Positions 36,320 to 57,489 of a DNA stretch of 64,000 bases are shown piece after piece. The DNA comes from Onchidella celtica (taxonomy: Eukaryota; Mollusca; Gastropoda; Systellommatophora; Onchidiidae). The notes under the pieces are model-generated. The model saw only the letters and a list, made by a program, of their open reading frames with translations, made no database searches and was not told the origin of the DNA. The stretch's first letter is position 1. Each line of letters opens with the position of its first letter. The position numbers and the translations under genes were made by a program. The stretch is from NCBI GenBank assembly GCA_963931925.1, contig OZ007570.1, positions 53,705,880 through 53,769,879 on the forward strand, written 5' to 3'.

Positions 36320-36439
36320 ACACGGAGCCAATATCAGACCATACGACTTGTTAACTCTTTGCAGTTCACGCATTTTGTACCGTTTCTGAAACCCAACGAG
36401 AGTTGTCTCAAATAATTATTGCATGCCAGTGTCAACTTG

Positions 36440-37530: not shown

Positions 37531-37789
37531 GACTGGACCAGTGTCATATGTAGACTTTGGTCACGATCGTTCTTCATTTCTCTAGGACCTCACTGTAAGG
37601 ACTTTGGTCCTGAGGACTTTGATGACGAAGAACACACAGTTTGACATATTGATTGTTCATTTTCCCAAATTGCCCGCACAACTTTTCTCAAACTTCGGCC
37701 ACCAATTGGTAATTCAGCGGCGCAAAGTCCGGATGGTTTAGTATATTATGCAGGTAAACAGCCAGCACAGCACTGCGCCATGGTCCACA

Positions 37790-37930
37790 ACGACAGAACG
37801 GGGATATTCGCACCCACAGTGTACACGTCTGGACAGCTTAACTATAAGAACACTCAACACATCATGTAACACTTTTCAGAAACGCCTGAAAGCACACCTT
37901 TAGAATTGATAGAATATAACCACGGCTTAA
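37790..37930 (+). pseudogene. Degenerate LINE reverse-transcriptase 3' fragment, copy 2
   Basis: This is the homologue of the fragment at 36,440-36,600, on the same strand and beyond the 145-bp array. The frame ...RTLNTSCNTFQKRLKAHL then stop looks like the tail of a LINE reverse transcriptase. Two similar tails flanking the array suggest that the intervening repeats belong to the 3' region of the same element, or that the pair is a duplication. Tentative. Confidence 0.4.
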
Positions 37931-38749
37931 TCTAAAATGCACAAACGTTGCACGGGCATTCTTATAAAATACGAAACAATCTTATTGCCATAACAAAACC
38001 CTTAGGAACAATAAAAATTGTCCCTATCGAAGTTTTTCCATTATGTGGAATTCTATTATGAATATTAGTCTCGCACCAATTCTGATCCATTCTCCATGGT
38101 GCGCATGTGTGCGGGCCTTGTAGTGAACAGCAGTACATCACGAGCTAATGGCACAGCGCCACAGAGCCAGTTGCTGCCAGCAAAATGTACACCCAAGAAA
38201 TACAGTAGTTGCAGAAATTGATTTGCGTCCGACTAGGCTTCGCATGGTAAGGTCTTCCCGGATTTACTAAGAAAATAAATATACGAAATTATGGTGTGCA
38301 CTTTGTGTCTGCCAGTGGCTAACTCTACCGATCTGGGATTAGAATGCTGCCTACCTCTCCCAATTCTAGATCTAGATCTAGATCTAGTTCTTGTGGCCTA
38401 AAAAGTTGACATCGGAAAAAAAGAAAAAAAACCTTCTTTCAAAAGCCAGCGTAAGATGAACTATTATTCCTAAACATTCCGTTTTCCTAAGGCCTACGAC
38501 AGTGAACGAGTTAGCAGAGAACGCCATGCTAGTCCATGAATAATAAAAATGTCCCTGAATTTTAATGACCCAAGTAAGCAACGTCTGGGAGTGGCTCCGT
38601 GCCCTACTGCTCTCTGTAACAAAATTTGAACATATTGAATTTAACATTATGCTCAATTTCACCCCTTTTTAGACATTTCCAATTATAAAACATTTATACT
38701 CAGTTACAAAACTCTTTTCAGATCGGTACTACAAAACAACTTTTGAGAA
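37931..38749. other. Unassigned intergenic sequence
   Basis: No domain-bearing frame is seen. A short (AGATCT)n-like run lies at about 38,367-38,387. The remaining sequence is AT-rich without obvious repeats inside the window. Confidence 0.6.
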
Positions 38750-39028
38750 TTTTGCCAATCGTGGGTATAGAGCAAAATTGTTGTATCTCCAGGTTTACCA
38801 ATATGCCGTTCATAATGGCAATACTGTAATAATGACAAACTGTTTCTTGTAATTTCTTCGTTATTCGCTATCTTTAACCAGTTCCAAGTTACAGAGAAGC
38901 AGTATGGTTGTATCTCTCTTAAAGATGGGATCATTGAGAGCAATATTTTGAAATTTCCGAGTAAGCTTCCACTATTCATAAACCTGGAGATACAACAATT
39001 TTGCTCTATACCCGCGCAATTTGGTAAA
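38750..39028. mobile_element. Foldback/MITE-like element with perfect 35-bp inverted repeat
   Basis: 38,763-38,797 (starting GGGTATAGAGCAAAATTG) is the exact reverse complement of 38,979-39,013 (ending CAATTTTGCTCTATACCC). The match extends imperfectly outwards through TTTTGCCAA / TTGGTAAAA, for about 50-bp arms around about 180 bp of unrelated AT-rich DNA. A perfect 35-bp inverted pair is not expected by chance. It is probably a young non-autonomous DNA element. Superfamily and target duplication are not determinable here. Confidence 0.8.
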
Positions 39029-40836
39029 ATTTAAACGGAACTAAATTCTATTTGCGAAGTCCAGAAGCTCTGAATACCAAATTATTATAAATGACGAACC
39101 CAAAATAGACCGTGATAGGCGCAAAATGGCCGTTCTTGTGCCGACGTACCTTAAAACCCAAACCCAAACTCAAATATGTTCAGTAATGCTTAATTTGAAT
39201 AGACACCCCCCCCCCCCTCCCGCCCCACCCTGTGCTATTTGGTGTCTCTCATGACCCAACAGTGAGACTTCTTGTAAAGGAACCACGCGTGGGGGATGTC
39301 TAAAGGGGATTACTGAATTTACTGGCAAAATATTTGCCAATATAAATTATAATGCCAAATTCCTTTTAGTCTATTTCACAGTTTGATAATAAACAGTACT
39401 TAAATCAAAAACAAATACTTTTTTTTTTTTAGGTCTAAGCGTACACTATTTAGATTACATTTAGAAAACTTCAATACATGTATAGCATTGCAAGGACTCT
39501 AGTTAATGATTCGCCTTCTCACATAAAGAGGTAGTCAAACTCCGCCCCACACTTGTCAATTTGTACTCCTGCGCTCCGCCCACACAAGGGTGCAAAAAAG
39601 AGAGGGTGCAATGCGATACGAAAAAAAAAATTGCACGTCGTATTTCTAAAGAATTAAAGGGAACCCCGATCTAGGAGTATACTGATGGCTGTTATCGAAC
39701 TGATGCACTGTAAAACCCAAAAGTCAAACTCCCCACCCCCCCCCCCCCGCCCACCCTCACCCCCCCCCCCCAAAATTCCTCCCTCCTCCCGTAGTATGAA
39801 CGTAGGAACTATTTTGTAGATAGCCGAATTTTCCTTCGTTCAGAAATCTGTGCCCTTCTTCCGAAAATTACAACTTTAGAACTCTGTGACTGAATATTTT
39901 GGAAGTTGGTAAATGTGGATTACTGGTCTTCAAGATTTTAGTAGCGGCTAATTAGTGGACACTTCTGGCAGGATCTTCTTCTGTTTCCTCTCGTTCTGTT
40001 ATTTTTGCTCTTTCCTGGCACAAAGTGACTGTTATCGTGTCCACATGCCTTATCCAAACTAAAACTCAAAACTCGTAGTAAGCAAAATATTTTTTGTCCG
40101 TGAGAACTCATCTTATTTCGGTTATCTTGATTTGATGGATAGGTTTACAGGTTTACAGGCAGGATTAAGGGTTAGGGACAGGTTTGACAATAGATTTGGG
40201 TTGGGGAAGGGCTAGTACTTGTAATAAGATTTCCTTCAAGTTAGATCCTATTAATATCTTTTCTGACTCTTGCCCCATTGAACGGGTATTTTCTGGAGAA
40301 AATTGAATCGATAATCCTTCCGAAGTCTTGCTTCTTAAGGCTATGTAAAGAAAAAATGTTTCAGACTTCCAAGATAGCAATTTAATGATTTTACAAATTG
40401 TCACTGCTCTACTCCAATGGCATAAGTCATTTTTTGACACTCTTGCGATATTGAGAAAAAAACTGTTTCTTTTCCTGTCATTTGGTGACTCATGCCGTTG
40501 TGATTCTATTGGATTATGACATTTTCCTATCGGCGCATTTCTTTTTATCTGATAGCTCTCCTGCCCAGGAATGAAATGAACCGTCAGTTGCCTTTTGGCA
40601 TAAGTTTGACATATGCCATTATCGTATTGCAGTGGCGAAATAAAAAGTCGCCATTTCCGTTAACAAAATGCACACTTCTGCTCACGGGGCAAGGAAATCA
40701 CGCTTGTCCGGGATTTTTTTTTTTTTTCATTGTAAGGACAATGATTTTCTTTGGATCTGACCAAGTCAGCAACATTGAACCCGGAAGTGATGTAAAGTTA
40801 TAGTGATGCGTTTACTGTTAACTTAAATATTTACAT
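39029..40836. other. Unassigned intergenic sequence with poly-C runs
   Basis: The stretch contains C-rich tracts at about 39,206-39,228 and 39,736-39,772, several poly-A/T runs, and a short TTAGGG-like patch at 40,160-40,215 (GGATTAAGGGTTAGGGACAG). Frames of up to 95 codons occur but show no recognisable domain or signal. Confidence 0.6.
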
Positions 40837-41383
40837 CAGTGGTTCTCAACCTTTTTCAGGCAATCGCCCCCTTAGACTCCAAGTTTACTTTCATCACCAG
40901 CCCCCCCCTCTTTCCTCCCACCCCACCCCACCCCTCAAAATCCCTTATCAAACCCAACACACACATTTCACAAGAAAACCATAACTTCTGATGTTAAGTT
41001 TTTCAAAGTCTTATTAATGAATTATAAAACAGAGAGATTTCTTTATCAAATGCATTTAAAAAATAAAGAAAAAAGGCCTATAAAACCCACCTACATGTGC
41101 TGTTGAATAACCTTAGTGGCTGCCCTCATATTTGCCCCCAAAAACGTTTCCCTTCATTGTTTTCGCCCCCTTGTCGCCATTTTTCTTAAAAAATAAAGAA
41201 AAAAGGCCTATAAAACCCACCTACATGTGCTGTTGAACAACCTTAGTGGCTGCCCTCATATTTGCCCCCAAAACGTTTCCCTTCATTGTTCCCTTGTCGC
41301 CATTTTTCTTTGTTTTCACCCCCCCCCCCCCCGAGCTCAAAATCGCTCCCGGAGGGCGTTATTGCCCCCGTTGAGAACCACTG
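40837..41383 (+). mobile_element. hAT-type non-autonomous DNA element, copy A
   Basis: Terminal inverted repeats CAGTGGTTCTCAACC (40,837) and GTTGAGAACCACTG (ending 41,383) bound 547 bp. This terminus is typical of hAT elements. There is no transposase. Two further copies in the window share the internal words CAGGCAATCGCC, CCTACATGTGCTGTTGAA and the C-rich block. No matching 8-bp flank is visible for this copy (ATTTACAT / CTTCAGAG). The related copy at 56.8 kb has one, which supports the superfamily. Confidence 0.85.
41061..41320. repeat. 130-bp tandem duplication inside the hAT copy
   Basis: AAATAAAGAAAAAAGGCCTA starts at 41,061 and again at 41,191. The ~130 bp between them are repeated with few changes (GAATAACC versus GAACAACC; a short deletion in the second copy near CATTGTTCCCTTG). 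The low divergence indicates a recent duplication. Confidence 0.9.
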
Positions 41384-42039
41384 CTTCAGAGCAATTTTTT
41401 TGTAACATTTAAGAAAATGATCAACGAAATTCGCCGCTTTGAAGAAATTCACGTTGCTTATGGATTTACCATTCAGAAAACCTTAAGGTTATGGAAAATC
41501 TCAGATTGCAACACAACAAACAATGGCTGTTGTTTTTTTTTTTGTTAATATTTTAGAAAATCATCGAAATTTGCCGGTTTGAGGAAATCACGTTGCTCAT
41601 GGCAATACTCGCCGATAAGTCATCGTGTTGATTTAATATTCTACATACAAATATCTCATTGTCCACATTTTTTTTTTTATTGTTCAATTATTTTATCTGT
41701 TCAATTTTTTCATATTTTTTTTTTTTTTTGTTGTTGTTTTTCTTCACGAAGAAAGTGTTGAACTGAAATATTGACTTCTTTTTTTTTTTTTTTAGTCTTC
41801 CTTTTCTCTTTGCGTTTTTTAAAATATTGTTACAAGTACGTACAACCCCCAATTTTTTTTTTTAATTTTTAATTATTTTTTTGGGGCGCTAGAGATACGT
41901 ATTTTAAGGTCTTTTGTGACTCCAGAGGTAGAGAGCTCCTCCCGAAATACTCCCTGACAACAGCCTTAATTATTCTTTCAGATGTTTTTATTCTTTTTTT
42001 GTTAGCCTTTTTTTTTTTTTTTTTTTGAAAGGGTAAGGG
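41384..42039. other. T-rich intergenic region with a small direct repeat
   Basis: About 60 bp near 41,401-41,463 (words AAGAAAATGATC, CGCCGCTTTGAAG, CACGTTGCTTATGG) recur in diverged form at 41,543-41,602. The rest is dominated by poly-T runs (for example near 41,670, 41,700, 41,780 and 42,010). No gene is seen. Confidence 0.6.
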
Positions 42040-42110
42040 GCAGGGTTAGGGATTTGATAAGATTTAGGGTTGAGGATAAGGACAGAGTTAGGGATAGGTA
42101 GGCCTACGTA
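42040..42110. repeat. Short TTAGGG-like minisatellite patch
   Basis: GGCAGGGTTAGGGATTTGAT and GAGGATAAGGACAGAGTTAG are degenerate members of the same family as the arrays at 34.1 and 43.8 kb, in the G-rich orientation. Confidence 0.6.
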
Positions 42111-42719
42111 TGCGTACACGCCCCTAGCGAAAAACGCTTAGGGTGCGTACGTACTTGTAACAACGGCCTTTTCTTTTCTTTTTTTTGTATCCTGTGGGTA
42201 TCATTTCTTACACGAGGCTTTGCTACATACAACTTTTTTCTTTTTCGCCATTTTTTTACTCAGTTTTCGGGAACATTTCAGAAGTCTGAGGGCACAAATT
42301 TCTAAACGAACCAAACTTTAGCGATGGACAAACACATTCAAGGACTTGACAAATCTTAATTCCGAGCCGAAAAAGACTCGACAAAGCCCCAAGTCCAGTT
42401 CTGAAAGAACCCGAGGCATCTCACTGAAGCCCGTGCAATGTACATCATGTTACACACACCCCATCATGATACCCGACACCCTTTGACCCTCTGCCCCCTG
42501 TCTGCCCCACCCCAATTCCCCGTGGGTGTGGCCTTAATTCCCAGACTCAACCTGCCCCAGTGGTTCAGGTGGTCGAGAGGGTGGTGAGAAGTCTATCAGC
42601 ATGCACAAGTTGAACAACACAACAGGAGTAGGGAGGAAGCAGGGGAATCCATGTGTTTTTCTGAGAGGGGTGTAGTGGGAGAGGAATTCGAAAGACAGGT
42701 TTATTTTGGTTGCTCTCTA

Positions 42720-43315
42720 CATTTTTGACTATGGGGGAGGGCGGCGCGGGGGTAGGGGGAGAGGGGGATAGGATGGGGATGGGGGGATGGGGGTGGAGGT
42801 GGAGTGTGGGTGAGTGAATTAGGTTGTGGGGTGGGATGGGGATGGGGTGGATTGGGGTATGCAGGTGGGGGGTGGGTGGATTGGGGTATGCGGGTGGGGG
42901 GTGGGAAGTGAGGTGGATTGGGGTATAAGGGTGGAGGTGGGAAGTGCGGTGGATTGGGGTATAAGGGTGGAGATGGGGTGGATTGGGGTGTAAAGGTGGG
43001 GGGTGGGATGGATGGGGGTATAAGGATGGGGTGGAGTAGATTGGGGTATGCGGGTGGTGGTGGGGTGGATTGGGTATGTGGATGGAGGTGGGTGGATTGG
43101 GGTATCGGAGTGGGAAGTGGGGTGGATCGGCGTATGGGGGTGGGAGGTGGGTTGGATTGGGGCAAGGGGTGGACGGTTGGGGTGGGGTTTGTGGGTGGGA
43201 GATGGGGACTGGGGTGTATTGGGGTGGGAGGTGGAGGTGGGGTGGATTGGGGTGTGGGGGTGGGGTGGGCTGAGGGGGTAGTGGTGAAGGTGGGGGTGGG
43301 GGGAGGGGGCAAACG
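42720..43315. repeat. G-rich minisatellite, 29-38 bp period
   Basis: Variants of GGTGGATTGGGGTATGCGGG followed by TGGGGGGTGGGA repeat about 15-18 times; anchors GTGGATTGGGGT lie near 42,849, 42,878, 42,912, 42,950 and 42,979. The plus strand carries dense G-runs, so G-quadruplex formation is plausible. Proline-rich minus-strand frames (up to 252 codons) and glycine/valine/tryptophan-rich plus-strand frames across it are translations of the repeat, not genes. Confidence 0.92.
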
Positions 43316-43372
43316 TTCTTCACTTGTTTAGACTTCTTGAAGTTCTTCCGCTGCAGTTTTGATTGTCCTGTC

Positions 43373-43588
43373 TACCCAGCCAGCAAGCCTAAGAAAATCC
43401 AACGCACATGATTAACAACAATATTTGCATATAAAGTAATGACATCGTTTCTATCTCGATCCGCCGGTGTACGACATCGCAACGACATCAGTCTGATGCC
43501 ACCAGCCCGCCCCTACGATTATCCAACTAATCTTTTGGAAATCCTATATAAATCTACGTTGGATTGACGTAGGAATGCTGGCTGGGTA
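43373..43588. mobile_element. Small TIR element, family M1, full-looking copy
   Basis: TACCCAGCCAGCA at the left is the exact reverse complement of TGCTGGCTGGGTA at the right. An inner match (AATCCAACG / CGTTGGATT) lengthens the arms to about 35 bp imperfectly. Related copies lie at 56,278-56,562, and partial ones at 44,384-44,471 and about 60,960-61,040. The TA at each edge could be a mariner-type target duplication. However, similarity to other copies seems to continue a few bases past the right TA (TTGCCGT / TCGCCGT), so the true ends are not settled. Confidence 0.7.
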
Positions 43589-43825
43589 TTGCCGTCTTAC
43601 GGAAAATACGGTATATATTCCAATTTAGGTAAAATTCACATTTCAACATCATTTTTAGCAAGGAAAGTGTTCTATCTTTCTAACTGGGTTTCTAATTTTG
43701 AATGACTAATGGGTTCATTTGGTCATCACGGAATGGAAATTGAAGCCTAAATCCTGGAAAAGAGTTACGTACCACTTTGAATTCTTAGAGTTCTTTACGG
43801 ATGTTCTTTTTGTTTTCTGGTTGAA

Positions 43826-44330
43826 AGGATTAGGGATAGGGTTATTGATACGATTAGATTCAGAGTTAGGGATAAGGACAGCGTTAGGAATAGATTTAGG
43901 GTTAGGGATATGTTCAGGGTTAAGATAAATTTAGGGTTAGAGATAAAGTCAGGATTAGAGATACGTTTAAGGTTAGAGATAACTTTAGGGTTAGAGATGA
44001 AGTCAGGGTTAGGGATAGGTTTAGGATTAGCGATAACGCCAGGTTAGGGATAGGTTTAGTAGGATTAGTGATAAGGACGGGGTTAGGTGTAAGTTTATTA
44101 TTAGAGATAAGGACAGGATCAGGGATATGTTTAAGATTAGGGATAAGGACAGGATTAGGAATAGGTTTATGGTTAGGGATATGTTAGGGTCAGGGAGAGG
44201 GTCAGGGAGAGGCTTAGGGTTAGGGGCATGTTTTGGGTTGGGCATAGGGACAGGATTAGTGATAGGTTTGGGGTTAGGGATAACGACGGGGTAAGGAATA
44301 TGTTTAAGCTTAGGGATAGAGTGGTCTTGA
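43826..44330. repeat. Degenerate TTAGGG-rich minisatellite
   Basis: Words such as GGGTTAGGGATAGG, GATAAGGACAGGATTAGG and TTTAGGGTTAGAGATAA repeat with irregular 18/36-bp spacing over about 500 bp. It is the reverse-complement orientation of the tract at 34.1-35.0 kb, so the two form a large inverted pair about 9 kb apart. Confidence 0.87.
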
Positions 44331-44383
44331 CTGTGTGGTCTGGACGTATGGAACTCTTTCCTAAGTCATGCAACAAAGGGACA

Positions 44384-44471
44384 TCCTACCAACCCTATAA
44401 AAATCCTACCAACCCTACAGAAATCCTATACAAATCTACATAGAATTGACATAGGGATGCTGGCCAGGCTA
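44384..44471. mobile_element. Partial copy of TIR family M1
   Basis: CAGAAATCCTATACAAATCT, then GAATTGACATAGGGATGCTG GCCAGGCTA, match the right third of the element at 43,373-43,588 (CCTATATAAATCTACG...TGACGTAGGAATGCTGGCTG). The left end is missing. Confidence 0.6.
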
Positions 44472-44613
44472 TCGCCGTTTGTTATTCAGTAATTAACAAA
44501 AAACAGCTTTAGATTTGTTTCCGGAAAGCAAATTAATTGGTAAGGTAATCCTGTTGCCTTTATCAACAAATCAAGAAACATGAAGGAGAATCAAATTCAG
44601 ATATTCTCAGTCT

Positions 44614-45059
44614 GGGGCCATCCATAAAACTATGTACGATCAGAGATTGGGTGGAGGAGGGCGGGTGCTTCCAGCCTACGCAAAGCGTGCACGGTTAAGG
44701 GGAGGGGGTCTGGAGAGCGCAATACACGTTTCTGCTATGGCAATTAAAAAGTTCGTTTTGTTTTATGTACCTTTTTAAAAATGAAACAAAATTGTTAGAT
44801 TATACGTACTGTTTCAAAATCTACTAAAACAGTGGGAAAATTCATGCAAAATGCCATATAAAATTTTCACATATCGAGGTGTCATAATGGACCTTCAACA
44901 ATTTGATGGCCACCCACTTTGAGCAGGGAGGCGAATGACGCGTGGGGAGGGGGGGGGATACTGAAGCCGACCGATTGAAAAGCGTGCGGGGGGGGAAACG
45001 GGTGGGGCGAGGGGGATAAAACCGCTGAAATCAAACAGACAGACTTTATGGATGGCCCC
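44614..45059. mobile_element. TIR element with GGGGCCATCCATAAA termini
   Basis: GGGGCCATCCATAAA (44,614-44,628) and its exact reverse complement TTTATGGATGGCCCC (45,045-45,059) bound 446 bp. The interior has no coding potential and contains G-rich runs near 44,700, 44,948 and 44,990. No target duplication is evident. Similar termini occur in non-autonomous DNA transposons of many animals; I do not assign a superfamily. Confidence 0.78.
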
Positions 45060-45068
45060 CATGTTAAA

Positions 45069-45325
45069 TCGCGACCCTAGTTCTTGTTTGTTCTATCTCC
45101 ATTTCCTGAAGAATAAAAAAAACTGGAGATCTTTTAGTATGTAGAAGAGATATAACAAATGCACATTTTTGACACTGTGTAAAATGCGTTGTGGCACTTA
45201 TCGAGCTCTTTCACTGTTCAGATTTTTTCTAACTCCCTTTCGTAATATTAAAGCCGCAAATGTTTCATGACAAATTTCTCAGTTATGCAAATAATGGAGT
45301 TGGAACAACAAGAACTAAAGTCGCC
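45069..45325 (+). mobile_element. MITE family M2, copy A
   Basis: The left end TCGCGACCCTAGTTCTTGTT and the right end AACAAGAACTAAAGTCGCC are inverted repeats. Interior words (TCTATCTCCATTTCCTGAA, AACAAATGCACA, GTTGTGGCACTTATCGAG) recur at 55.86-56.11 kb and, inverted, at 57.01-57.26 kb. The copy at 57 kb has a ~10-bp target duplication, which would fit a Mutator-like (MULE) origin. Confidence 0.75.
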
Positions 45326-45547
45326 AGATAATTACAACCCTAACCCGATGTTCCAGCGCTGTTAGACCCGGTCTGACCACAGCCCACAAATTCTCTCAGT
45401 AGATGATTCAGCCAGACCATCTGGAGTTCCGAGCGCATACTGGTTTTACACAGTCCCAACGGCTGACGCGAGTCGGGATCTGAAGTAGTTGCTGGCCCTT
45501 CTGCTGGGCAGTGACATCTGTTCTCTGAACATCCAATTCTCGGGACT

Positions 45548-45660
45548 CCCTGTAGTAAAAATAATAAAAATAATGATGATAATAATAATAATACACAGCA
45601 TTTATATAACGCTTCATGCCGTTAACAACCAGGCTCTAAGCACTTTACAACATTTATGTC
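45548..45660. repeat. AAT-rich microsatellite plus dispersed-repeat tail
   Basis: An (AATAAT/ATGATA)-rich run at about 45,551-45,592 is followed by CAGCATTTATATAACGCTTC and CTCTAAGCACTTTACAAC. The microsatellite/TATATAACGCTT/GCACTTTACAA arrangement resembles a repeat tail scattered through many marine invertebrate genomes (from memory). It is probably the end of a SINE-like or LINE-like element. Confidence 0.5.
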
Positions 45661-46564
45661 ATATCAATCACACACACAATACACAGGCACACTCGGGGAA
45701 AAAACAAAAAATGGACATTCAGAGTGTAAAAAGATGACTTTTCAGCTGATGTTTAAAAGTCTTTGTCTCTCAAAGACAGAGGCAGAGAATTCGAAATCTG
45801 AGGCCCTTGAAAAGAAAAAGATTTTTCACCCATGGTCTTGACGTCTCTTAGAAATTTTAAACTTTTTAGTATCAGCAGATGATTTAAGATGCCGTGATGG
45901 TACATGCGGAGTCAAAAAATCAGTTACATAAGTTGGCGAGTTTTTGTAGGCCTACATACATTTGTGACACAGGGTAGCCAGCTTATAATACATTTTTCGT
46001 TTTTCTACCAGTAGCCAGTAGTCATGGACACAAAATGAGCGTGGGGTTACAAGCTGACTTGTCTTGAAAATCCGTGTCAAATTACCATGTTATTTAAGGC
46101 AAGAGTTGTGAACGTCCCAACCAGTTTGAACTCCTGCAGTTCTTGGGAATATTTCCATGTGAGGCTATTTTTATTTGAAGGTTTACCGGCAGAATTTTGC
46201 TGATTCCCTACCACAAACTGTTCTGAGCTGTCCGTCCGAAAAGCATCTGCTTCAGATAGTACAAGAAAAATACACTGAGAAATATTCTGTTTGATTGCTA
46301 ATAATCTGGCATTTTACAACATTTCTCCAAAGCTCCTTTACAGCCATATCACTGATCACCGTCTTTCAAAGAGGACGTTATGAGAACTCTTGTCCTCTGA
46401 AAGAAACTTGCTGGAAGTGAATCAGTGGAGGATTAGGGATAAGCTTAATAATAGGTTAGGGAAGAGTTTGGCAATGGGCATTTCCATGCAAACGTCAATC
46501 TCAGGGCCAAAATCTTATCTTGAACATATGATGAAAGTTTTGTAATTTTTCAACGGAAACACCG
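45661..46564. other. Unassigned sequence left of the DIRS element
   Basis: About 900 bp of AT-rich, non-repetitive sequence with no recognisable frame. A small TTAGGG-like patch is at 46,430-46,475. Confidence 0.55.
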
Positions 46565-46643
46565 CCCTGCCGTCAGGCACTCCGGGTAATATTAGATTTC
46601 AAACTACTGTAACTACGAGCAGAAGCAAATAATGAAAAACACA

Positions 46644-47800
46644 TCAAACATCACAAAATGCCTTTAAATTTGATTTAAAATAATTTTCCAGAACAGCTTG
46701 TCCAATATTTGTTCTAACTTGCTTTTTATAATATTTGGAAAATGTACTTTCGTTGGACCATCCTGCAGCAGAGAGAATGTCTGATATTGGCATTCCCGAC
46801 CTTGAAGCTGCGGATGTAGAAGCAGAACGATTGCTATGTGCTGTATAGATGGAAGTGTCAATGCCTGCGTACCCCATCACAAGTTTAATCCACCTGGACT
46901 CTGTCCTTACTGATATGTTTGTGCGGCTTAGTAAAGCTAATGAGAGGCTAGGAGGTATTAACAAGAAGGTATTCTGTGCGCTTAATGTATGCTTGAAGCG
47001 TTTTAACAATGCACAAAAATTTTGGATTGTCTGGATAGGCTAGTAGCCCAATAGGTTGTTAATGCACTCCTCGCCGTGAGTGTTTGAGTAAATCTTTAAT
47101 CACAAAGACACACCTAGAACTAGTAATCGTCATATCAGTTGTGTCTAATCTGTGAATAGTTTGGCATCGTTGTCCAGAAAGTAGAGCAAGAAGCATGACA
47201 ACTTTTAAAGTAAGTTCTTTTAGTGTGAGTTGCTCCGGAGGAGACCATGTGTCTAAAAGCTGTAATACTTGGTTTACATCCCACGTTAGAACATTTGATT
47301 TCTTTGGGTAGGATGGTTTTGTTTCAAAAGCTCCCGCCATGAGCCTTTTAACTGATGGTAAATTACCAAAACGTAACGCCACTATCCACAGATACACAGC
47401 ATGATAACGCTGATCTTGCTGTGCAAAGGGGCGAGTATGAGGATCCATTACAAAAGAGCTCAGCAAGGAAATTTATAGCAATCGCTATAGGTGGAAAAAT
47501 GGGATCCACTTGTTGTCTATCTGCGTAGCGTTTCCATTTTGTAATATAGGAACCGCAGGCTTTTTGTGTCTGTTTCCCTCCATGAGGCCATGACGAGGTC
47601 AGCAGCGTGCTTTGAAAATCCTTGACCCTCATACTGGTCCCTGACACTTTGCAAATAAGTAGTCTCTGTTTGGTGTGGAGGCCATGTAGACTGTCTGGCT
47701 CGTTCGGCAAAAACGACAGATTTTTCCTGGCTGATAGAAGAATGGGGCAGTCTGCCAGTATGTTCATGAGCATCGGGTAAAACGGTTGGTTTGGTCAAAA
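46644..47800 (-). pseudogene. DIRS tyrosine recombinase remnant
   Basis: Three overlapping minus-strand frames reconstruct the domain order. An N-terminal SAM-like part (KWKRYADRQQVDPIFPP, TARSALS) lies at about 47,560-47,360. The first catalytic arginine region (LALLSGQRCQTIHRLD) lies near 47,190-47,145. The C-terminal box has AHSNRSASTSAA near 46,830 and GWSNESTFSKYYKK near 46,760-46,720. GQR, HxxR, GW and the final Y match the R-H-R-(H/W)-Y pattern of tyrosine recombinases, and the spacing matches DIRS-type enzymes. Frameshifts and stops (for example just after LLKHSRRGVH near 47,060) show it is inactive. The linker upstream (ILIVPFWPNQPFYPMLMNIL, 47,820-47,760) is also typical of DIRS polyproteins. 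Confidence 0.88.
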
Positions 47801-47953
47801 TGGCACGATTAGGATGCCTGTCGCTCCGTCCAAGATGATTTTCTGTACTACCGTGCAGGATAGAGAATGGGGGGGGGGGGGGGGGGAGCATAAAAAGTTT
47901 GTGTCTCCCAGTTAATAGTGAATGCATCTACAACCATTGCATCAGGATCTGGT

Positions 47954-48410
47954 CTATATGACACAAAAAGGCCTGAACTGGTAATTTATTCTGGATGCAA
48001 ACAGATCTATACTAAGGGTAACATTTAAGAGAGTGAGGGCATCTTTTAAAGCAGAGGGATTTAGTTTCCACTCCATGTCCATATTAACGTTCCTGGATTC
48101 TTCATCCACCTCAACGTTATCTACACCAGGAATGTGAGCTGCATTCAACTAGATGTTATTTTGTATGCACCATTCCCAAAATCTCTTAGTCAATTATGTT
48201 TAAGCGATGAGACCGGCTGGAACCCATTTTGTTGAGACAGGCAACAGCAGTTGTATTGTCCATCCTCAAATGAACATGGATATAAGATCTATGTTTTGCA
48301 AACGATTTAACCGAAAAGAAGCCTGCCAGCAATTCTAGCTCATTGACATGGCAATTCAGTGTTTCATTTTCTGTCCAGGCTCCACCTGTCCTTACATCAT
48401 TGCAAACAGC
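47954..48410 (-). pseudogene. DIRS RNase H remnant
   Basis: On the minus strand, about 48,400-48,175 reads NCHVNELELLAGFFSVKSFA, then HLRMDNTTAVACLNKMG. The Glu in ELELLAG and the Asp in MDNTTAV correspond to RNase H catalytic residues. Downstream, 48,148-47,954 gives AAHIPGVDNVEVDEESR and IDLFASRINYQFRPF, the C-terminal signature of the DIRS/retroelement RNase H region (HIPG.xNVxAD, DLFASR). A frameshift or stop near 48,165 separates the two parts. Confidence 0.85.
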
Positions 48411-48459
48411 ACCTCAAGCTTTCAAGCTGGAGTCACTTTTGATTATAAGCGTTGGGTTT

Positions 48460-49240
48460 TCATGTATGATTGATAGCCGAGCTTGAGGAGGCAATATTGG
48501 TTGACCACCATCTAATGTCTTCATAAGAAGATGCAGACAGTATCATGGATTTATCCCAGTTATTTTTATTTTGTTTCAATGCATGATCTTTCTCACATTC
48601 CAGTGACCTGTAATGCAAAGGCCCAAATTGTACAGCAGGAAAACTTGCTACCATGAGCCTAATAAGGCAGGCAACGTCCCTGATTGTGAATTTCTTGCCA
48701 TTCAGAAATTCTTGACACATTGTATAGATTTTGTCTTTCCTTTCCTGCGTAAGTGTAACCGCCACTGTGACAGAGTTAATGACAAATCCTAGGTAAGTAA
48801 TTTGCTGTGTTGGTGCCAAGACCGATTTGTCAGGATGTACTACAAACCCCAGAGTATCAAATAGTTTAACTGTATCTTTAATATTAGCCGCACATTTTTT
48901 CTTGTGCGTGGCCTGACAGTAATGAATCATCCAAAAATCCCGTAAGAACATGGCATAACCATGCAAATAAGAATATATTGGTTTCATGAGTTTCGTGAAA
49001 TTTCTTGGCGCTTGCGACAACCCATTTGGAAAACATGACTGTGAAGGCATATTTTTCATCTTTCCATTCAAATTTTAAATACTTCCAGTCCTCGTGAGCT
49101 ATGGGGACGCTATAATTATATGCCGACACGAGGCCAACACTCGCCATCCAATAGCGAGGGGTTATCAGGGAAACAGCGGTTCTGAAAGTCTCCATTTTAA
49201 ACTTTTCGTAATGGTGAGGAGTGCGAGGAGGAGGAGGAAG
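48460..49240 (-). pseudogene. DIRS reverse transcriptase remnant
   Basis: From 49,230 down, HHYEKFKMETFRTAVSLI precedes a decayed motif A (WMASVGLVSAYNYSVPI; the usual catalytic Asp is lost), then KYLKFEW. The sequence shifts frame near 49,060 to CFPNGLSQAPRNFTKLMKP (motif B region). Motif C is read as GFLDDSLLSG in the other frame near 48,930. Thumb-like sequence follows: LGFVVHPDKS, ITYLGFVINS, FTIRDVACLIRLMVASFPAV, GPLHYRSLE. Upstream of HHYEK the frame runs into an (AGG/GAT)-rich tract, so the N-terminus was deleted or replaced. Confidence 0.87.
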
Positions 49241-50139
49241 CGGATGAAGATGATGATTATGAAGATGATGAGCGATTTCTCTTCTGTCTTCCCCTTTTCA
49301 ATAACTCCATTTCTTTCAGTTTCATCATCTTCTCTATAATTAATTAATTTTGTTGTTGTCTTGTAGTGCTTGAAGCATTACTTTGTCTGGATTGTATCGG
49401 TTGTTGCTGGAAATTGTAGGGCTAGACTCTTAAGTCAGCCTCCTCATCACTCCTCGTATTTAGGGAGACAGCATCCTCTCGATCCGAGATTTGGTCCCTT
49501 CCAGACATTTTTGCCCCTGAATTTTTGTTAAAAAAACCAGGGCTAAACCAACTGTATAGATTTTTGGCCCGAGGCCTTCACTGATCAGAGATCATTTGCG
49601 AAAGTTTATGGCTGGAGGCCTCAGTCAGTGAGTACAGTCTAGAACAGTGACCTGGAGCTGAGCTCAAATTGATCGGATTCGAAATCTGAATTGACCCGGA
49701 GGGTTAAAAAAAAAGAGAATATTTATGGCCCGAGACCCAGGATAAAAGATCAGAGATTAAGTTACATAACATAGCCTACATAACACAGTAATGGGTATAA
49801 GTTGTGAATTGACCCCGGGGGGTAAAAAGGGGATTATAACTAGCCCATATTTACGGCCCGAAGCTCAGAGTAAAGGATCAGAGATCCAGATAAACACATA
49901 AAACAAACTATGTGCAGAAATAATATTGGGTCAGGGTGATCTGAGATCAAGCCTTAATAATTGCCGGAGTTCACACCGTAGTTTTTAATCCACTGAAATA
50001 AATGGTTAGAACCACCACAGTGCTAGTACTGCAGTGGGTAATCAAAAGAAATCTTTTCACCAAGTGCTGTAATAAACGCGTCCCACCAGTGCGGTACTCC
50101 GTAGCGAAGTGACCAGTGGCGGGAAATGTAGCGTTTCTG
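49241..50139 (-). other. DIRS 5' region: degenerate, with internal repeats
   Basis: This lies between the RT remnant and the right inverted repeat. It starts with a GAGGAGGAGG/GATGATGAT simple repeat (49,210-49,275). Three diverged copies of a ~110-150 bp motif follow, recognised by TTTATGGCCCGAG-like words near 49,565, 49,720 and 49,848 with GATCAGAGAT nearby. No gag-like frame survives. Confidence 0.55.
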
Positions 50140-50168
50140 ATATTACCCGGAGTGCCTGACGACAGGGG

Positions 50169-51760
50169 AGATAAAATTTGAAAATCGCTCCACGCAAAAG
50201 TAGAATAAACTCCACTCTAGTGAAATGTGTCTAAAAGAAGTAACATTCAACATCATTTTTTTTACGGTTCTCATTTTGGCACCTGGTGATATGAAATTCG
50301 GGTGCATAGCGATTTCCTTCACTTATGACAGTTTATTCAATACTGTTAACATCTTCGCATGCATCTATGTCCAGTTATTTAGTCTGAACATTTTCTGGCA
50401 CATTCAGAATAATATGTAATTCTTTAACGTCAGTCCGTCACGCTAAAAACAGCAAAAGTTGTATCAAATGAAAAGTACACATCCCACACTTGTTTCCTTT
50501 ATTTCCTCTGCCTACTGCCAACACTTTTAGAGCTTCCATAATCATTTTAACTGTACAATGTATGTAAATTTCCTCGTGGGAGAGCGTGATGGAGTGACAA
50601 TGTTATGTGATGGGCTGACCGTGAAGGACTGACATAACAACGACTAAATACTCAGCTCCACCATTTGCGAAAAAAGCACAAGTGATTACATTTGCTGATG
50701 CTTGGTTGAAGAAATGTCGACACACTGAAATGAGACACTTTGCTTTTGTAACTTTATCATTATGCAGCATCATGAATATTTTTTTGTGTATGCAACAGGT
50801 CACGTGTATATTTTTATATCTTTGAAAAAGCTGGAAAGAATGTAAGACATATTTGCAGGACTACAGCTAGATCTGTGCTTTGTTCCTGATGCAGCAGCAA
50901 GCCAGTTCAAACAGAAATTTAATTTCTTTGGTTTAAGTAATACTTACAAATTACACACCCCAATCTGCTTGATACTTTGAGAATGTCCGTAGAAGTAGTG
51001 TGTAGTGTCTAACTCAGTTGAGCCAAAATGTAGAGATAGAACTTTGTCATTCTACAGGGACGGAATGAGAAGGATGCCCTGGCAAGCTGTTCTCTCAGGA
51101 AATAGCAAGAATTAGAGCGTACAGGACTTTGGGCACTGCGTAGTGAAAAAAAAATAATACAGAAACGATCTCTCGCTTTTAAAAACTGAAGAAATCGAGA
51201 ACAAGATGATGTAAAGTGTGAGGGAATTCCAGCGGTGCAATGTACTTGATAGTTGCATTCCATAAAAGTTGTATCCAGCTTAAAAATAAAGTTGCCAACT
51301 GCGGTACTGCACAAAAGGGTGAGTGGGCACTGCAGGATTTTAAGAAGGAGGTCCCTACTGATGAAATGATATTATGGTGTCCATGTTGCTAAAGACAAGA
51401 AATGTGATTTCTATTGTAATCACGTTTTAGTTTACAATGCTAGAGTGCTTGGCTTTGACAGTAAAATGGTTTGAAAATGAAATTTCTCAAAGGAATTTGT
51501 CATAATGTGTTCTGTTAGTGCCAGTGGCCACCAAGTGATATGGACTCAGTGTACAAATCATTTATGGTTTTGAGACCTGTCACAATGAAAGAAAATGAGC
51601 CATTTTCTCTTACAGACATAGACGATATTAAAAATAACTCTTACAAATGAGATGAAATTGTAAGATTTTGCCCTGAAGATATTACCTGGGAACATTGTTT
51701 CTCACTGTATTGTATTTGGATTCAAAAGAATAATGGGCCTTCATTTGTATAAATTTGTAT
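50169..51760. other. Unassigned sequence
   Basis: About 1.6 kb without recognised repeats. Several frames of 60-101 codons occur on both strands, but none shows a domain or a plausible gene start. It may contain an old pseudogene; the plus-strand words ENEPFSLTDIDDIKNNSYK near 51,595-51,650 look protein-like but lead into stops. Confidence 0.5.
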
Positions 51761-51761
51761 T

Positions 51762-51865
51762 TGTATAACTCTTTAATCCCATTTGGGAAATTTGCCTTTG
51801 TGCCATTGCAGCCCAGTTATAACTGGAGCAGGCACGTCGTCGCCACAGTGCAGCGCCGGTCGGCG
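51762..51865 (+). repeat. Dispersed repeat family R1, copy 1
   Basis: GCCATTGCAGCCCAGTTATA, ACTGGAGCAGGCACGTCGTC and CACAGTGCAGCGCCGGTCGG recur at 60,228-60,325 with few changes. The first 40 bp (TTTAATCCCATTT / TTCAATCCCATTT) also align. Both copies stop at CGCCGGTCGGCG and run into a T-rich or TG-rich tail, as expected of a retroposed or short element end. Confidence 0.75.
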
Positions 51866-52139
51866 GGTGTTGTTTTTTTTTGGGGGGGGGGAGGAGGGAA
51901 GAGGGGAGGGAATGGTAGGGATGAATTTTTATTTAATTTTGCCCTGGCAGTTACCTCCAGATATGGTGTTGTGTTTAGAGATGTCATCAGCCACGTTTTT
52001 TTTTTTATTTCAGTCTGTCGCTCACACATTACTGAGACTAGTTCTTATAAAATTCAAGCAAATGATTTAAGATACTGGGTGTGCACGGCTCAAACATTCA
52101 TACAAGATAAGGTGAAGTTCACAAGCAGATGGAAACCAA

Positions 52140-52856
52140 CCTGAATATAATAAACAGAACAAGAAGGTTGGCCTGAAAATCCACAAAGACAAAAAATACC
52201 AAACAAACTACGAGACATATGAATAGGTATAACTGAAAACAAAACCATTGAAAAAGTCACGGAATATAAATACCTAGGCCAGACAATACACATGGAACAC
52301 AACATAAAAACTGAAACAGACTCTAGAGTAAGAGCAGCATGGAGCTGCTTTCGACAAACAGAGATATTCCTGGACCACAAACTGCCAATGCCCCTTAAGA
52401 GACAAGTATTCAGCCAGTGCATTATTCCAACGATTAGGCTTACCTATAGTTGACAAAGAAAATATGGTCGAGTACAAAACAACTTAGAACGAATTAAGAA
52501 CTACCCAGAGGGAAGTGGAAAGAAGAATGCTTGATATCAGCCTACAAGATAACATTCCCACGCCGAAATACGCAAAACAAACAAAGCTAACGGACATGGT
52601 AAAATTGGAATTGGGCCGGACATGTGGAAAGGATGAATGACAAAAGATGGACAAAACGCTGCCTTGAATGGCAACCACGGACAGGAAAGAGAACACGGGG
52701 ATGTCCAGGAAGAAGATGGCAGGATGATATTAAAATGAGAGGGGAAACAATTAACATGGATGAGGAAGACATCAGACAGAAAGGAATGGAAGTCATTGTC
52801 GGAGGGCTACATTCTGCAGTGGATGGACAATGCCTAGGTGAAAAGGTGAAATAGAT
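52140..52856 (+). pseudogene. RTE-like LINE 3' fragment
   Basis: The plus-strand conceptual translation in shifting frames gives VGLKIHKDKKYQTN, then NKTIEKVTEYKYLGQTI, DSRVRAAWSCFRQTEIFLD, LKRQVFSQCIIPTIRLTYS, EVERRMLDISLQDNIPTPK, and finally MNDKRWTKRCLEWQPRTGKR TRGCPGRRWQDDIK. These are the thumb and C-terminal signatures of RTE-clade-like LINE reverse transcriptases (EYKYLGQ, ERxMLxISLxD, RWTxxxxEWxPR, GRPxRRWxDD). There are at least three frame changes or stops, and the catalytic core is absent. The fragment ends where the 34-bp G-rich minisatellite begins. Confidence 0.85.
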
Positions 52857-53402
52857 GAAAATGAAATGGGTTTGATTAATAGATTTGGATGGGGTTAAGA
52901 ACGGATTTAATAATAGGTTTGGATGGGGTTGGAAACAGACTTTATAGTAGGTTTGGATGGAGTTGGGAACGGATTTAATAATGGTTTTGGATGGGGTAGG
53001 GAACGGATTTAATAGAGGTTTAATAATTAATAGGTTTGGGTGGGATTAGGACTGAATAGGTTTAACAAATGGGTTTGGACAAGGTTAGGAAATGATTAAA
53101 TAATGGGTTTTGGATGGGGTTAGGAAAGGATTAAATAATGGGTTTGGATGAATCATGAAGTTAAGAAGGGTTTAATAAATAAATGGGTTTGGGTGGGGTT
53201 AGGAACAGTATACTAATGGATTTGGATGGGGTTAGGAATTGGTTTACTAATAAGTTTGAATGGAGTTATTAACAGGTTGAATGACAGGTTTGGATGGGGT
53301 TAGGAATGGGTTTAATATTATGTTTGGATATGGTTAGGAACAGGTTTAATAATAATAATATGTTTTGGTGGGATTAGGGACAGGCTTAATAATAATTAAT
53401 AC

Positions 53403-53476
53403 TGCCATGCAAAGGCAGACGACGTAACCGATGAGGTATAAAGAGAGCATATATGTCGATCTGCCTTTACACACCA
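53403..53476. repeat. 75-bp hairpin insert, copy 1 (degraded)
   Basis: The left arm TGCCATGCAAAGGCAGACGACGTA is written here as TGCCATGCAAAGGCAG plus ACGACGTA. The right arm TATGTCGATCTGCCTTTACA is the most diverged of the five, and the copy is one base shorter. Loop ACCGATGAGGTATAAAGAG. Confidence 0.8.
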
Positions 53477-53985
53477 GAATAGATCTGGATGGGGTTAGGA
53501 ATGGGTTAACTAATATGTTTGGATGCGGTTAACAATACATTTGGATGGGGATAAGAACAGGTTAAATAATAGGTTTGGGTGGGGTTAAGGATACATTTAA
53601 TAGTGGGTTTGGATGGGGTTAAGAACAGGTTAAATAATAGGTTTGGATGGGGTTAATAACAGATTAGTAATATATTTGGATGGGGTTAGGAAGGGTTAAC
53701 GGTTTAATAAATAATAGGTTTGGATGGAGTTAGGAATGGGTTTAATAATAGGTTTGGATGGGGTTAAGAACAGGTTTAATAATAGGTTTGCATGGGGTTA
53801 GAACTGGTTTAATAATAGGTTCGATGGAGTTAGTGACGGGTTATAAATTGGTTTGGACGGGGTTAAGAACGACTTTGATAATAGGTTTGGATGGAGTTAA
53901 GAACGTGTTTAATATTATGAATGGATATGTTTAAGAATATGTTTAATAGTAGGTTTGGATGGGATTAGGGACAGGTTAAGAATAC

Positions 53986-54060
53986 TGCCATGCAAATGCA
54001 GAGCGACGTAACTGATAAAGTATAAAGAGAACACATACGTCGCCCTGCCTTTGCATGGCA
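53986..54060. repeat. 75-bp hairpin insert, copy 2
   Basis: A 25-bp left arm (TGCCATGCAAATGCAG...CGACGTA), a 25-nt loop (ACTGATAAAGTATAAAGAGA...) and a 25-bp right arm (TACGTCGCCCTGCC...GCATGGCA). The arms pair at 23 of 25 positions. Confidence 0.88.
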
Positions 54061-54849
54061 GAATAGGTTTGGATGGGGTTAGGAATCGGTTCAATAATAG
54101 GTTTGGATGGGTTCATAACAATTAGCAGGTTAATAATAGGTTTGGATGGGGCTCACAACAGGTTAATAATACGTTTGGATGGGGTTCATAACAGGTCAAT
54201 AATTTGGGTGGGGTTCATAACAGGTTAATAATACGTTTGGATGGGGTTAAGAACGAGTTTAATAATAGGTTTGGCTTGGGTTAGGAACGGGTTTAATGAT
54301 AGGTTTGGCTTTGGGTTAGGAACGGGTTTAATAATAGATTGGGATGGTATTAAGAACGGGTTTAATGATAAATTTGACTGGGGTTAAGAACGGGTTTAAT
54401 GATAAGTTTAGCTGGGGTTAGGAACAAGTTTAATAATAGATTTGGATTGGGTTAGTCATCGATTTAAATTAAAATAAGAGGTTTGGATGGGGTTAGGAAC
54501 AGGTTTAATAATAGGTTTGGATGGGATTAAGACTTGTATGCGGTTAGTACCGGGTTTAATAACAGCTTTGGGTGAGGTTAGGAACAGGTTAAATAATAGG
54601 TTTGTATGGGGTTAAAAATGAGTTTGACAGTAGGTTGGAGTTTTGATGGGGTCAAGAATGGGTTTGGTAACAGTTTGGGGTAGGGTTAGGAATGGGTTTA
54701 ACACATGTAATAGACTTGGATTGGGTAAGGAATAAGTTTAATAATAGGTTTGGATAGGATTAGAAACGGGTTTAGTAATCGGTTTGGACAAGATTAAAAA
54801 CATGTTTAATCATAGGTTTGGATGGGATTAGGGACAGGTTTCATGATAA

Positions 54850-54924
54850 TGCCATGCAATGGCAGAGCGACGTAACTGATAAAGTATAAAAAGAGCACAT
54901 ACGTCGATCTGCCTTTGCACGGCA
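54850..54924. repeat. 75-bp hairpin insert, copy 3
   Basis: Same 25/25/25 layout. The left arm has GCAATGGCAGAGCGACGTA, the right arm ACGTCGATCTGCCTTTGCAC. The loop differs from the others by one base (TATAAAAAGAG). Confidence 0.88.
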
Positions 54925-55065
54925 GAAAAGGTTTGAATGGGGTTAAGAACGGGTTTGATAATAGGTTTGTATGATCTTAAAATGAGGTTTAATGACAAAT
55001 TTGAATGGGTTTAGGAACTGGTTTAAAAACTGATTTCGATTGGATTAGTGAAGGTTTAATAATAA

Positions 55066-55140
55066 TGCCATGCAAAGGCAGAACGACGTAACTGATAAAG
55101 TATAAAGAGAGCACATACGTCGGTCTGCCTTTGCAAGGCA
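55066..55140. repeat. 75-bp hairpin insert, copy 4
   Basis: Same layout; left arm GCAAAGGCAGAACGACGTA, right arm TACGTCGGTCTGCCTTTGCA. The loop matches the consensus exactly. Confidence 0.88.
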
Positions 55141-55633
55141 GAATAGGTTTGGATGAGTTTAGGAATAGGTTCAATAATAGGTTGGATGGGTAAGAATGGT
55201 TAAGGTGATAACTTTGAATGGGGTTAAGAACTGGTTTAATGATAGATTTGGATTGGGTCTTAAAACAACAGGTTTGGATGGGGTTAGGAACAGGTTTAAT
55301 ACCAAGTTTTAATGCCGTTATGAATGGGTTTAATAATAGGTTTTGATGGGATTAGGACGGGTTTAATAATAGACTTGGGTGCTGTTAGGATCGGGTTTCA
55401 TAGCAGCTTTGGATGGGGTTAGGATCTAGGAACAGATCAAATAATAGGTTTGAATGAGGTTAGGAATAAGTTTAATCATAAGTTTGGGTGGAGTTATGAA
55501 TGGGATTAATAACAGGTTTGGATGGGGTAAGGAACAGGTTTGGATGGGGTAAGGAACAGGTTTAATAATAAGTTTGGACATGGTTAAGAACAGGTTTAAT
55601 AATGCGTTTGGGTGGGATTAGGTTTAATGACAC

Positions 55634-55708
55634 TGCCATACAAAGGCAGAGCGACGTAAGTGATAAAGTATAAAGAGAGCACATACATCGCTCTGCCTTT
55701 GCACGGCA
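55634..55708. repeat. 75-bp hairpin insert, copy 5
   Basis: Same layout; left arm TGCCATACAAAGGCAGAGCG, right arm TACATCGCTCTGCCTTTGCA. The loop starts AGTGATAAAG. Confidence 0.88.
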
Positions 55709-55860
55709 GAATAGGTTTCGATGGAGTTAGTAACGGCTTTACAAATAGTAACAGGTTTGGATGGGGTTAAGAACGCACAAAACATTTCAGAGAAGATTCA
55801 CATATATATGCTTAAAACAAAAACTCTCCATGAACTGTTTGCAATGGCGGCCTACATTTA

Positions 55861-56108
55861 GTGACCAAAGTTCTTGTTTGTTTTATCTCCATTTTCTGAA
55901 AAGATGGGGATCTTTTATTATGCAGAAGGGGTATCAACAAATGCACACTTTGACACTTGTTTAAGATGTGTTGTGGCATTTATCGAGTTATTTCACAGTT
56001 CCGATTTATTCAACGCCTTATCATACTACCCAAACCCCAAACGTTTAATAATGAATTTTTCAAGTGTGCAGAAAAATGGAGTTGGAACAAACAAGAACTC
56101 AGGTCGCG
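55861..56108 (+). mobile_element. MITE family M2, copy B
   Basis: GTGACCAAAGTTCTTGTTTG at the left and AACAAGAACTCAGGTCGC at the right form the same inverted termini as the copy at 45.07 kb. Interior words (TTATCTCCATTTTCTGAA, AACAAATGCACACTTTGACA, GTTGTGGCATTTATCGAG) match. No convincing target duplication is seen. Confidence 0.72.
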
Positions 56109-56277
56109 ATTTCCCATCTGGTCTGGGCCTATGACCAGCTTCACACTGACCTGCCTAGATCTATCAACATGCACGAATCCGTAACAATTATCAAATCAGT
56201 ACAGACTAGAAATAAAAGCACATGCGTGAGCTTACCTTGTAGAAACTTCATCTTCGGCAGATAGGCTTTCAGCTTCT

Positions 56278-56562
56278 TACCCAGTTAGCAACCCTAAGGA
56301 CATCCGATGCTAGGACTGACGTCAAGTTTGTTCATAGGAATGACATCGTTCCTACGTAGATCGACCGGTCACGGCATAACGCCGACGACAGTCTGATGCA
56401 GGAAATCTGCCTCTATATAATAATCGCACTAATCCCACAGAAATCCTATACAAATTTACGTCGGATTGCAGTAAGGAACCGGTACCCACGGTTAGCCTAT
56501 ACCATCTCCACAGAAATCCTGGATAAATCTTACGTCGCACTGAAGTAGGCACGCTGGCTGGA
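56278..56562. mobile_element. TIR family M1, second copy
   Basis: TACCCAGTTAGCAACCCTAA at the left and GCACGCTGGCTGGA at the right are degraded versions of the M1 termini. GACATCGTT, CAGTCTGATGC and CAGAAATCCTATACAAAT match the copy at 43,373-43,588. It is longer because the segment around CACAGAAATCCT...TACGTCG is present twice (near 56,432 and 56,510). Confidence 0.65.
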
Positions 56563-57007
56563 CGTCGTCGGCAGATACCAGCATCTATAGTCAATCCATA
56601 AAGACGTCAAATTAATGCCCTTAATCAACTGAGAAAACCTTTCCCCCTATCTCACACCGGTGTTGTCGCTATGAGCTGAAACTATGACCTAACCGGGTTC
56701 TTTCCACGTGTCTCCTGCCGGCCTTGGCTTAGATTGAACTATCAGTGTATCCCGTGAGCTGCGTGGAAAAAAATTGTTCACCGTTGATACTGAAACCAAG
56801 AAACAAAAGTTTAGGTCAATGGTTCTCAATATGGGCGATATCACCCCCGGGGACGAATTTGATTTTTAGGGGGGGGGCGAAAACAAAGAAAAGGGTGACA
56901 AGGGGGCCAAAACGATTAAGGACAAAGTGGGAGGGGGGTGGGGGGGGGGGTGAGGGGTGAAAACATGAATGGAACTGATTGGGGGGGGGGGGGGCAAAAT
57001 CACAGGA

Positions 57008-57262
57008 AATCGCGACTTTAGTTCTTGTTGGTTCCAACTCCACATTTTGCACGGATGAAAAATCCGTCGTTGAACGTTTGCGGCTTTAGTATTATGTAAG
57101 GAATTATAATAATAATAACATCGGAACTGTGAAACAGCTTGATAAGCCACAACGCATTGTAAACAAGTGTCAATGTGTGCATTTGTTATGCCTCTTCTAC
57201 ATATTAATAGATCTCCAGTTTTACAGAAAATGGAGATAGAGCAAACAAAAACTAAGGTCGCC
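57008..57262 (-). mobile_element. MITE family M2, copy C, nested in the hAT copy
   Basis: It starts AATCGCGACTTTAGTTCTTG and ends ACTAAGGTCGCC, inverted relative to copies A and B. The hAT flanks read AAATCACAGGA (56,997-57,007) and AAATACAGGA (57,263-57,272), a ~10-bp target duplication with one indel. Joining them restores a hAT-like GGGGCAAATxxxGGxAGCCACT. A 9-10 bp duplication with ~20-bp GCGAC-type termini suggests a Mutator-like MITE. Confidence 0.8.
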
Positions 57263-57489
57263 AAATACAGGATAGCCACTGACGTGTTCAACAGCATGTG
57301 TAGGTGGTATTATGAAAAGGAGTATTTTTGTAATAAGTGCATTTGATAAAGAATGCTTTCTGTTTTATAATGATTATAATCAACACGCGTGTTGTCACTA
57401 ATAAGACTGAAAACATTTACATCATATTTTGTGTGTAGTCTCTTGTGAAGTGTATCTGTTGGGTTTGAGTGGTGTGGGGGGAGGGGGGG

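Follow-up and report, generated by a model that had tools for sequence, protein, structure and literature searches.

The hairpins embedded in a 34-bp minisatellite of Onchidella celtica are very probably copies of an independently mobile 77-bp MITE that inserted once into this minisatellite and was then co-amplified and dispersed together with the array. This reading rests on sequence comparisons across a genome of 1.14 Gb (43 contigs), in which the stretch of 64,000 nucleotides analysed here, hereafter the window, occupies C4:53705880-53769879. We take the hairpin for a very short MITE because it belongs to a dispersed family, has palindromic solo copies and 4-bp duplications, and is accompanied by longer forms with the same ends. 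Two explanations had originally been offered for it, and half of each survives. The “cruciform module co-amplified with a satellite” was right about the co-amplification, as judged from the single orientation, a private upstream variant and recurrent spacings, but the palindrome itself appears to be a mobile element; the “mobile palindrome with a preferred target” was right about the mobility, as judged from solo copies and 4-bp duplications, but the arrays do not have the look of repeated insertion.

The Hairpin Unit and Its Minisatellite

The five hairpin copies described in the original prediction are all present at the positions claimed, and scanning the window without gaps brought up no sixth. 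On the + strand, copies 1 to 5 gave 54, 71, 74, 73, and 72 matches of 76, with the next best place at 36; on the - strand, the reverse matches of the palindromes themselves gave 53–55, with the next best at 39. A length of 75 bp had been predicted for four copies, with one shorter by 1; the regularity holds, but the complete unit measures 77 bp (76 bp in copy 1) and begins 1 base earlier and ends 1 base later than those limits, with arms of 26 bp instead of 25 bp around a 25-nt loop. Exactly 77 bp were found in 90 of 115 measured array copies, and the 26-bp arms contain no tandem repeats. The fold of each of the five copies was better than all 200 dinucleotide shuffles (z from -4.3 to -10.6). 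The finer details of the predicted module were borne out in part, with the loop word TATAAAG present in four of the five copies but reading TATAAAA in copy 3, the preceding unit GGGATTAGGGACAGG exact before three copies but, by reading, diverged ahead of copies 4 and 5, and GAATAGGTTTGGATGG, which follows the hairpin, exact after one copy but, again by reading, 1–2 bases off after the other four.

Table 1. Features of the window that bear on the hairpin-bearing array (positions counted from the first letter of the window).
Feature	Positions	Strand	Description	Basis
Hairpin copy 1	53402..53477	+	76 bp, 5' arm minus one base; flanks AATA/AATA	scan, fold test
Hairpin copy 2	53985..54061	+	77 bp; flanks AATA/AATA	scan, fold test
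Hairpin copy 3	54849..54925	+	77 bp; flanks GATA/AAAA	scan, fold test
Hairpin copy 4	55065..55141	+	77 bp; flanks AATA/AATA	scan, fold test
Hairpin copy 5	55633..55709	+	77 bp; flanks GACA/AATA	scan, fold test
34-bp minisatellite carrying the hairpins	52865..55775	+	unit about GGGGTTAGGAACGGGTTTAATAATAGGTTTGGAT; diverged	tandem-repeat analysis
Presumed LINE-like 3' coding remnant	52124..52860	+	abuts the array	sequence reading, flank comparison
Non-tandem right flank	55775..57478	+		flank comparison with other loci
Larger dispersed repeat holding the array, with insertions	33619..57478	.	colinear blocks, 68-84% identity with C9:705500-733400	colinear blocks

The consensus of the array flanks is TTTAATAATA, then the hairpin, then AATAGGTTTGG, that is, AATA/AATA, and the uninterrupted 34-bp unit reads TTTAATAATAGGTTTGG, so that AATA stands on both sides of the hairpin. 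Since the unit is AT-rich and itself contains AATA, these AATA/AATA flanks could in part be extra ATA units. In 20 further loci plus the window stretch, exact GGGATTAGGGACAGG occurs 28 times, in every case with a hairpin no more than 30 bp downstream; with one mismatch or fewer allowed, a hairpin comes next in 46 of 53 occurrences, and with two or fewer, in 87 of 156. Only exact copies of this private upstream variant mark the hairpin cleanly. The word GGGGTTAGGAACGGG occurs 19 times in the same sequences, with a hairpin next in 1 of them. We rejected the idea that the hairpin is an integral part of every 34-bp unit, given that these loci hold 1313 unit-like words and 126 hairpins. In one of them (L017:1-4790), about 4.8 kb of 34-bp array, fairly uniform by reading and with no hairpins detected, adjoins a hairpin-bearing stretch.

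Solo Copies, Longer Forms and Target-Site Duplications

The genome search for the module outside the minisatellite, which had been proposed with the original prediction, found solo copies. A search with a 39-nt core pattern produced 83+80 matches versus 0 for the control, and of 12 loci taken from that list, ten of them places without close listed neighbours plus two others, 11 lie in the minisatellite and one, L046, outside it. Nine further loci, a biased sample from the matches to an array hairpin, all lie in the minisatellite (coverage 0.47–1.00). When L046 itself was used for the search, three of four loci (L054, L056, and L057) were outside. A consensus arm of the ancestral type, CTGCCGTGCAAAGGCAGAGCGACGTA, has 602+628 = 1230 genome matches with three mismatches or fewer (reversed control 0); these include the array copies, and the places listed are spread over many contigs. 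Among 20 loci drawn from the best of the arm matches listed, two are in the minisatellite, five are solo 77-bp copies, and in the other 13 the arm terminates a longer element. One long copy, L073, is complete, measuring 224 bp and flanked by TATA/TATA, and L077 has 246 bp between its arm matches; these longer forms have the same ends as the 77-bp unit but a different interior. The 34-bp unit is absent from all 20 loci fetched out of 40 matches to the solo-type loop. The solo consensus, built from 27 copies, has perfectly palindromic 26-bp arms, with family ends CTGCC...GGCAG and the duplication directly outside them.

Perfect 4-bp direct repeats stand just outside the ends in 9 of the 20 solo-type-loop loci versus 25 of 380 mismatched left-right pairings (Fisher p = 7e-6, with pairings that are not independent); this count keeps L080 and L081, which have no recognisable 3' arm and were left out of the tree described below. 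An earlier set of nine solos plus the array gave 4 of 10 versus 6 of 90. Duplications of 5 bp were found in 0 of 20 and 0 of 10 loci of the two sets. The 4-bp duplication is thus an excess, with 11 of 20 and 6 of 10 loci having no perfect one, several with good ends among them. The duplicated targets are AATA, AATT, TATA, TATT, TGTT, and TTTT.

Homologous Arrays within a Larger Repeat

A DNA search with a window hairpin and its flanks listed at least 42 matches, 40 of 248 candidates being scored, and 20 loci of 10 kb each were drawn from the best of them, which makes this a biased sample. Together with the window they amount to 21 arrays holding 3 to 12 listed hairpin matches apiece, a few of them partial (e.g., two in L024). 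The spacings between hairpins recur across arrays, running at about 530, 805, 620, and 254 and then 406+288 in L012, L014, and L021, while other arrays match this pattern loosely. Relative to the minisatellite, the hairpin has the same orientation in 127 of 127 array places. For the blocks of hairpin plus 300-bp flanks whose two ends lie within two positions of the model ends, the nearest relative is in a different array in 98 of 115 cases, and in 80 of 96 when the near-identical arrays L012 and L021 are left out.

The likeness extends beyond the tandem units. A marker word of the presumed LINE-like remnant that abuts the array is present in 14 of the 21 array loci, and the right flank of the window (56101-57100) is matched by 14–15 of the 20 other loci. 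The stretches C9:705500-733400 and C12:46984500-47012400 are 98.3–98.6% identical to each other over their three longest blocks, and both are colinear with the window in blocks of 68–84% identity, with further minisatellites inside. The recurrent spacings, the shared non-tandem flanks, and the cross-array nearest relatives argue that the arrays are largely homologous copies of a single ancestral array within a larger repeat, and not separate collections of insertions.

In the best tree split, all 105 distinct array copies fall on one side together with 3 of the 27 solos; this split was chosen as the best one, and its support, 0.82, is modest and comes from 77 bp. It fits a single insertion of one subfamily without proving it. 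Position pair 6/72 is A-C in the array consensus, which is what independent decay of the two partners of an ancestral G-C pair in a CpG context would produce.

Conservation and the Question of a Selected Fold

The 126 hairpin matches, after removal of 4 short ones and 17 duplicates, left 105 distinct near-full copies for conservation and covariation. The loop had been thought better conserved than the surrounding repeats, and in agreement with this the hairpin as a whole shows a lower divergence than the 34-bp units in all 13 element pairs compared, but within the hairpin the loop (0.925) is no better conserved than the arms (0.936 for the 5' arm and 0.909 for the 3' arm). Compared with the non-repeat flank, hairpin divergence is lower in nine of the 13 pairs and higher in four. 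The pairs, however, are not independent of one another, and the divergence of the tandem units may be inflated by misalignment.

The absence of compensatory arm changes, on which the original prediction had argued against a selected RNA fold, was confirmed by the covariance check over the 105 copies, with 5 compensatory cells versus 6.9 ± 2.3 in 500 shuffles and 14 double changes at paired positions versus 16.5 expected by independence. Given that arm changes are uncompensated and that the hairpins diverge about as much as non-repeat flanks, selection on the fold is unsupported. In Rfam, nothing in 33000-64000 of the window reached the gathering score; there are sub-threshold matches to microRNA families, the best being mir-449 with 35.8 bits (E 2.4e-6 in a 761-base search; gathering score 60.4), and different hairpin copies matched different families, as expected of any long hairpin. 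Of the features of a microRNA precursor, neither a family match at the curated threshold nor a structure with compensatory changes was found, and we rejected a selected RNA fold on the lack of covariation and the sub-threshold Rfam matches. There is no tRNA gene in the window, and a 21-base hairpin word had no exact match in viral contigs. Among four arm words searched for in text, the outer 17 nt of the 3' arm consensus, CTGCCTTTGCACGGCAG, turned up in three microalgae papers, one of which prints it within a sequence read as the anticodon arm of a tRNA-Ala(UGC) gene (PMC7699214); the match is probably due to chance, no further tRNA feature having been seen in the element.

Other Features of the Window

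The first 33.5 kb of the window (1-33519) is occupied by a CT-rich satellite whose basic repeat is about 37 bp long and which also forms higher-order units; it is broken at about 12224-13330 by a frame that by reading resembles reverse transcriptase. Another such frame, also by reading, lies at 48460-49074 (-), in a stretch matched by L009 alone among the fetched loci. Two minisatellites of TTAGGG-like 18/36-bp units (34353-34605 and 43971-44225) are mutually inverted, 35222-35579 is inverted relative to 42322-42679, and a module of about 250 bp occurs three times (45071-45324, 55863-56107, and 57012-57261), the third time inverted. At 58208-59030 there is an insertion, about 815 bp long and bounded by inverted ends, that is absent from the matching place in L015, L017, and L027; judging from its flanks, it may have made a 9-bp target duplication, now with mismatches, a length known from Mutator-like elements.

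Comparison with Known Elements

MITEs are short and non-coding, with terminal inverted repeats, a fixed-length target duplication, many dispersed copies, and longer and shorter forms sharing their ends, and the hairpin family shares all of this. The solo consensus has perfect inverted repeats, the 4-bp duplication appears as the excess described, the arm matches are many and dispersed, and at 77 bp, or at 224 and 246 bp in the longer forms, the element is too short for a transposase. In contrast to ordinary MITEs, the element here is also part of a minisatellite module in arrays. Its 77 bp place it at the low end of MITE lengths.

As for its superfamily, Sola elements have a DDD transposase. 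One paper describes a 4-bp target-site duplication for Sola elements and the termini 5'-TG...CA-3' for Ginger elements (PMC10741241). Sola would be compatible by the 4-bp duplication, and the termini of Ginger do not fit, given that the element ends in CTGCC...GGCAG with the duplication directly outside.

Several systems combine mobile elements with tandem repeats. According to its description, Tetris of Drosophila virilis is a foldback transposon that gave rise to satellite DNA through its internal tandem repeats (PMC4079207); a palindromic transposon is there, as here, linked to tandem arrays that spread, but the tandem repeats of Tetris are inside the inverted repeats of the transposon, whereas here a tiny transposon is inside a tandem array. 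The hairpin does not match a foldback element of this kind, since its 26-bp arms lack internal tandem repeats. Cg_HINE of the Pacific oyster comprises non-autonomous Helentrons with satellite-like central repeats (PMC7492417), and has in common with our arrays that tandem arrays are dispersed at the core of a larger repeat whose flanks are shared; it differs in that the hairpins here are a separate element with 4-bp duplications. In Xstir and miDNA4 of Xenopus, according to a review, a MITE and a tandem array form one composite (PMC12628747), which is the same combination, but the tandem unit is thought there to derive from the MITE or to have been captured by it, whereas in our case the array was apparently the target of the MITE. 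In the literature searched by sequence word and by topic, no description of the 77-bp element was found, and as a family of MITEs it would be new, though of a familiar kind.

Origin and Spread of the Hairpin-Bearing Arrays

The 77-bp form would have arisen as an internal deletion of a longer element and would have moved as a cut-and-paste DNA transposon, through a presumed enzyme, duplicating 4 bp at AT-rich targets (AATA, TATA, TATT, etc.). One copy would then have been inserted between ...TTTAATAATA and GGTTTGG of the 34-bp unit, leaving AATA on both sides, as the flank consensus suggests. Unit and hairpin would have multiplied together inside the array, by unequal exchange or slippage; the tandem 406+288-bp higher-order spacings, the single orientation, and the private upstream variant point to such multiplication. 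Finally, the array would have been spread through the genome as part of the larger repeat, as indicated by the shared non-tandem flanks and the recurrent spacing. The lack of compensation as the palindrome decays marks it as most probably a passenger. That it instead played an active part, promoting breakage and unequal exchange as a cruciform, such that hairpin-bearing higher-order units expanded and the array spread more readily than a hairpin-free minisatellite, seems unlikely.

We consider it very unlikely that selection has kept the hairpin, in arrays and solo sites alike, as an RNA or DNA structure such as a small-RNA precursor or a functional cruciform; the strong fold, the lower divergence of hairpins than of 34-bp units, and the weak microRNA-family scores led by mir-449 speak for this reading, but compensatory and double changes are no more frequent than expected, divergence about equals that of non-repeat flanks, and the Rfam matches are below the gathering score and differ in family between copies. 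Repeated independent insertion of the palindrome at a preferred target in the minisatellite has in its favour the mobility of the solo family and its duplication of AT-rich 4-bp targets, among them AATA, a word present in the unit; we nevertheless hold it to be still more improbable in view of the uniform orientation, the private upstream variant GGGATTAGGGACAGG with its hairpin in every exact case, the grouping of the array copies with so few solos, and the spacings that recur between arrays. The argument from orientation is weaker if insertion into AATA is itself oriented. Least probable of all is a birth of the hairpin inside the minisatellite, e.g., by template switching, with the solo copies having escaped from there: some solo flanks are indeed AATA/AATA (L057 and L075), but L073 duplicates TATA, the longer forms carry the same ends around a different interior, and the solo consensus is a perfect palindrome while the array consensus has the decayed pair 6/72.

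In summary, a single insertion of a tiny transposon would have labelled a minisatellite, and its copies may now be used to trace how the arrays multiplied and moved, with no new mechanism required beyond ordinary repeat evolution. The element would also add to the MITEs a family at the short end of their size range (77 bp, with a 4-bp duplication), which may be useful for learning how little sequence a transposase needs.
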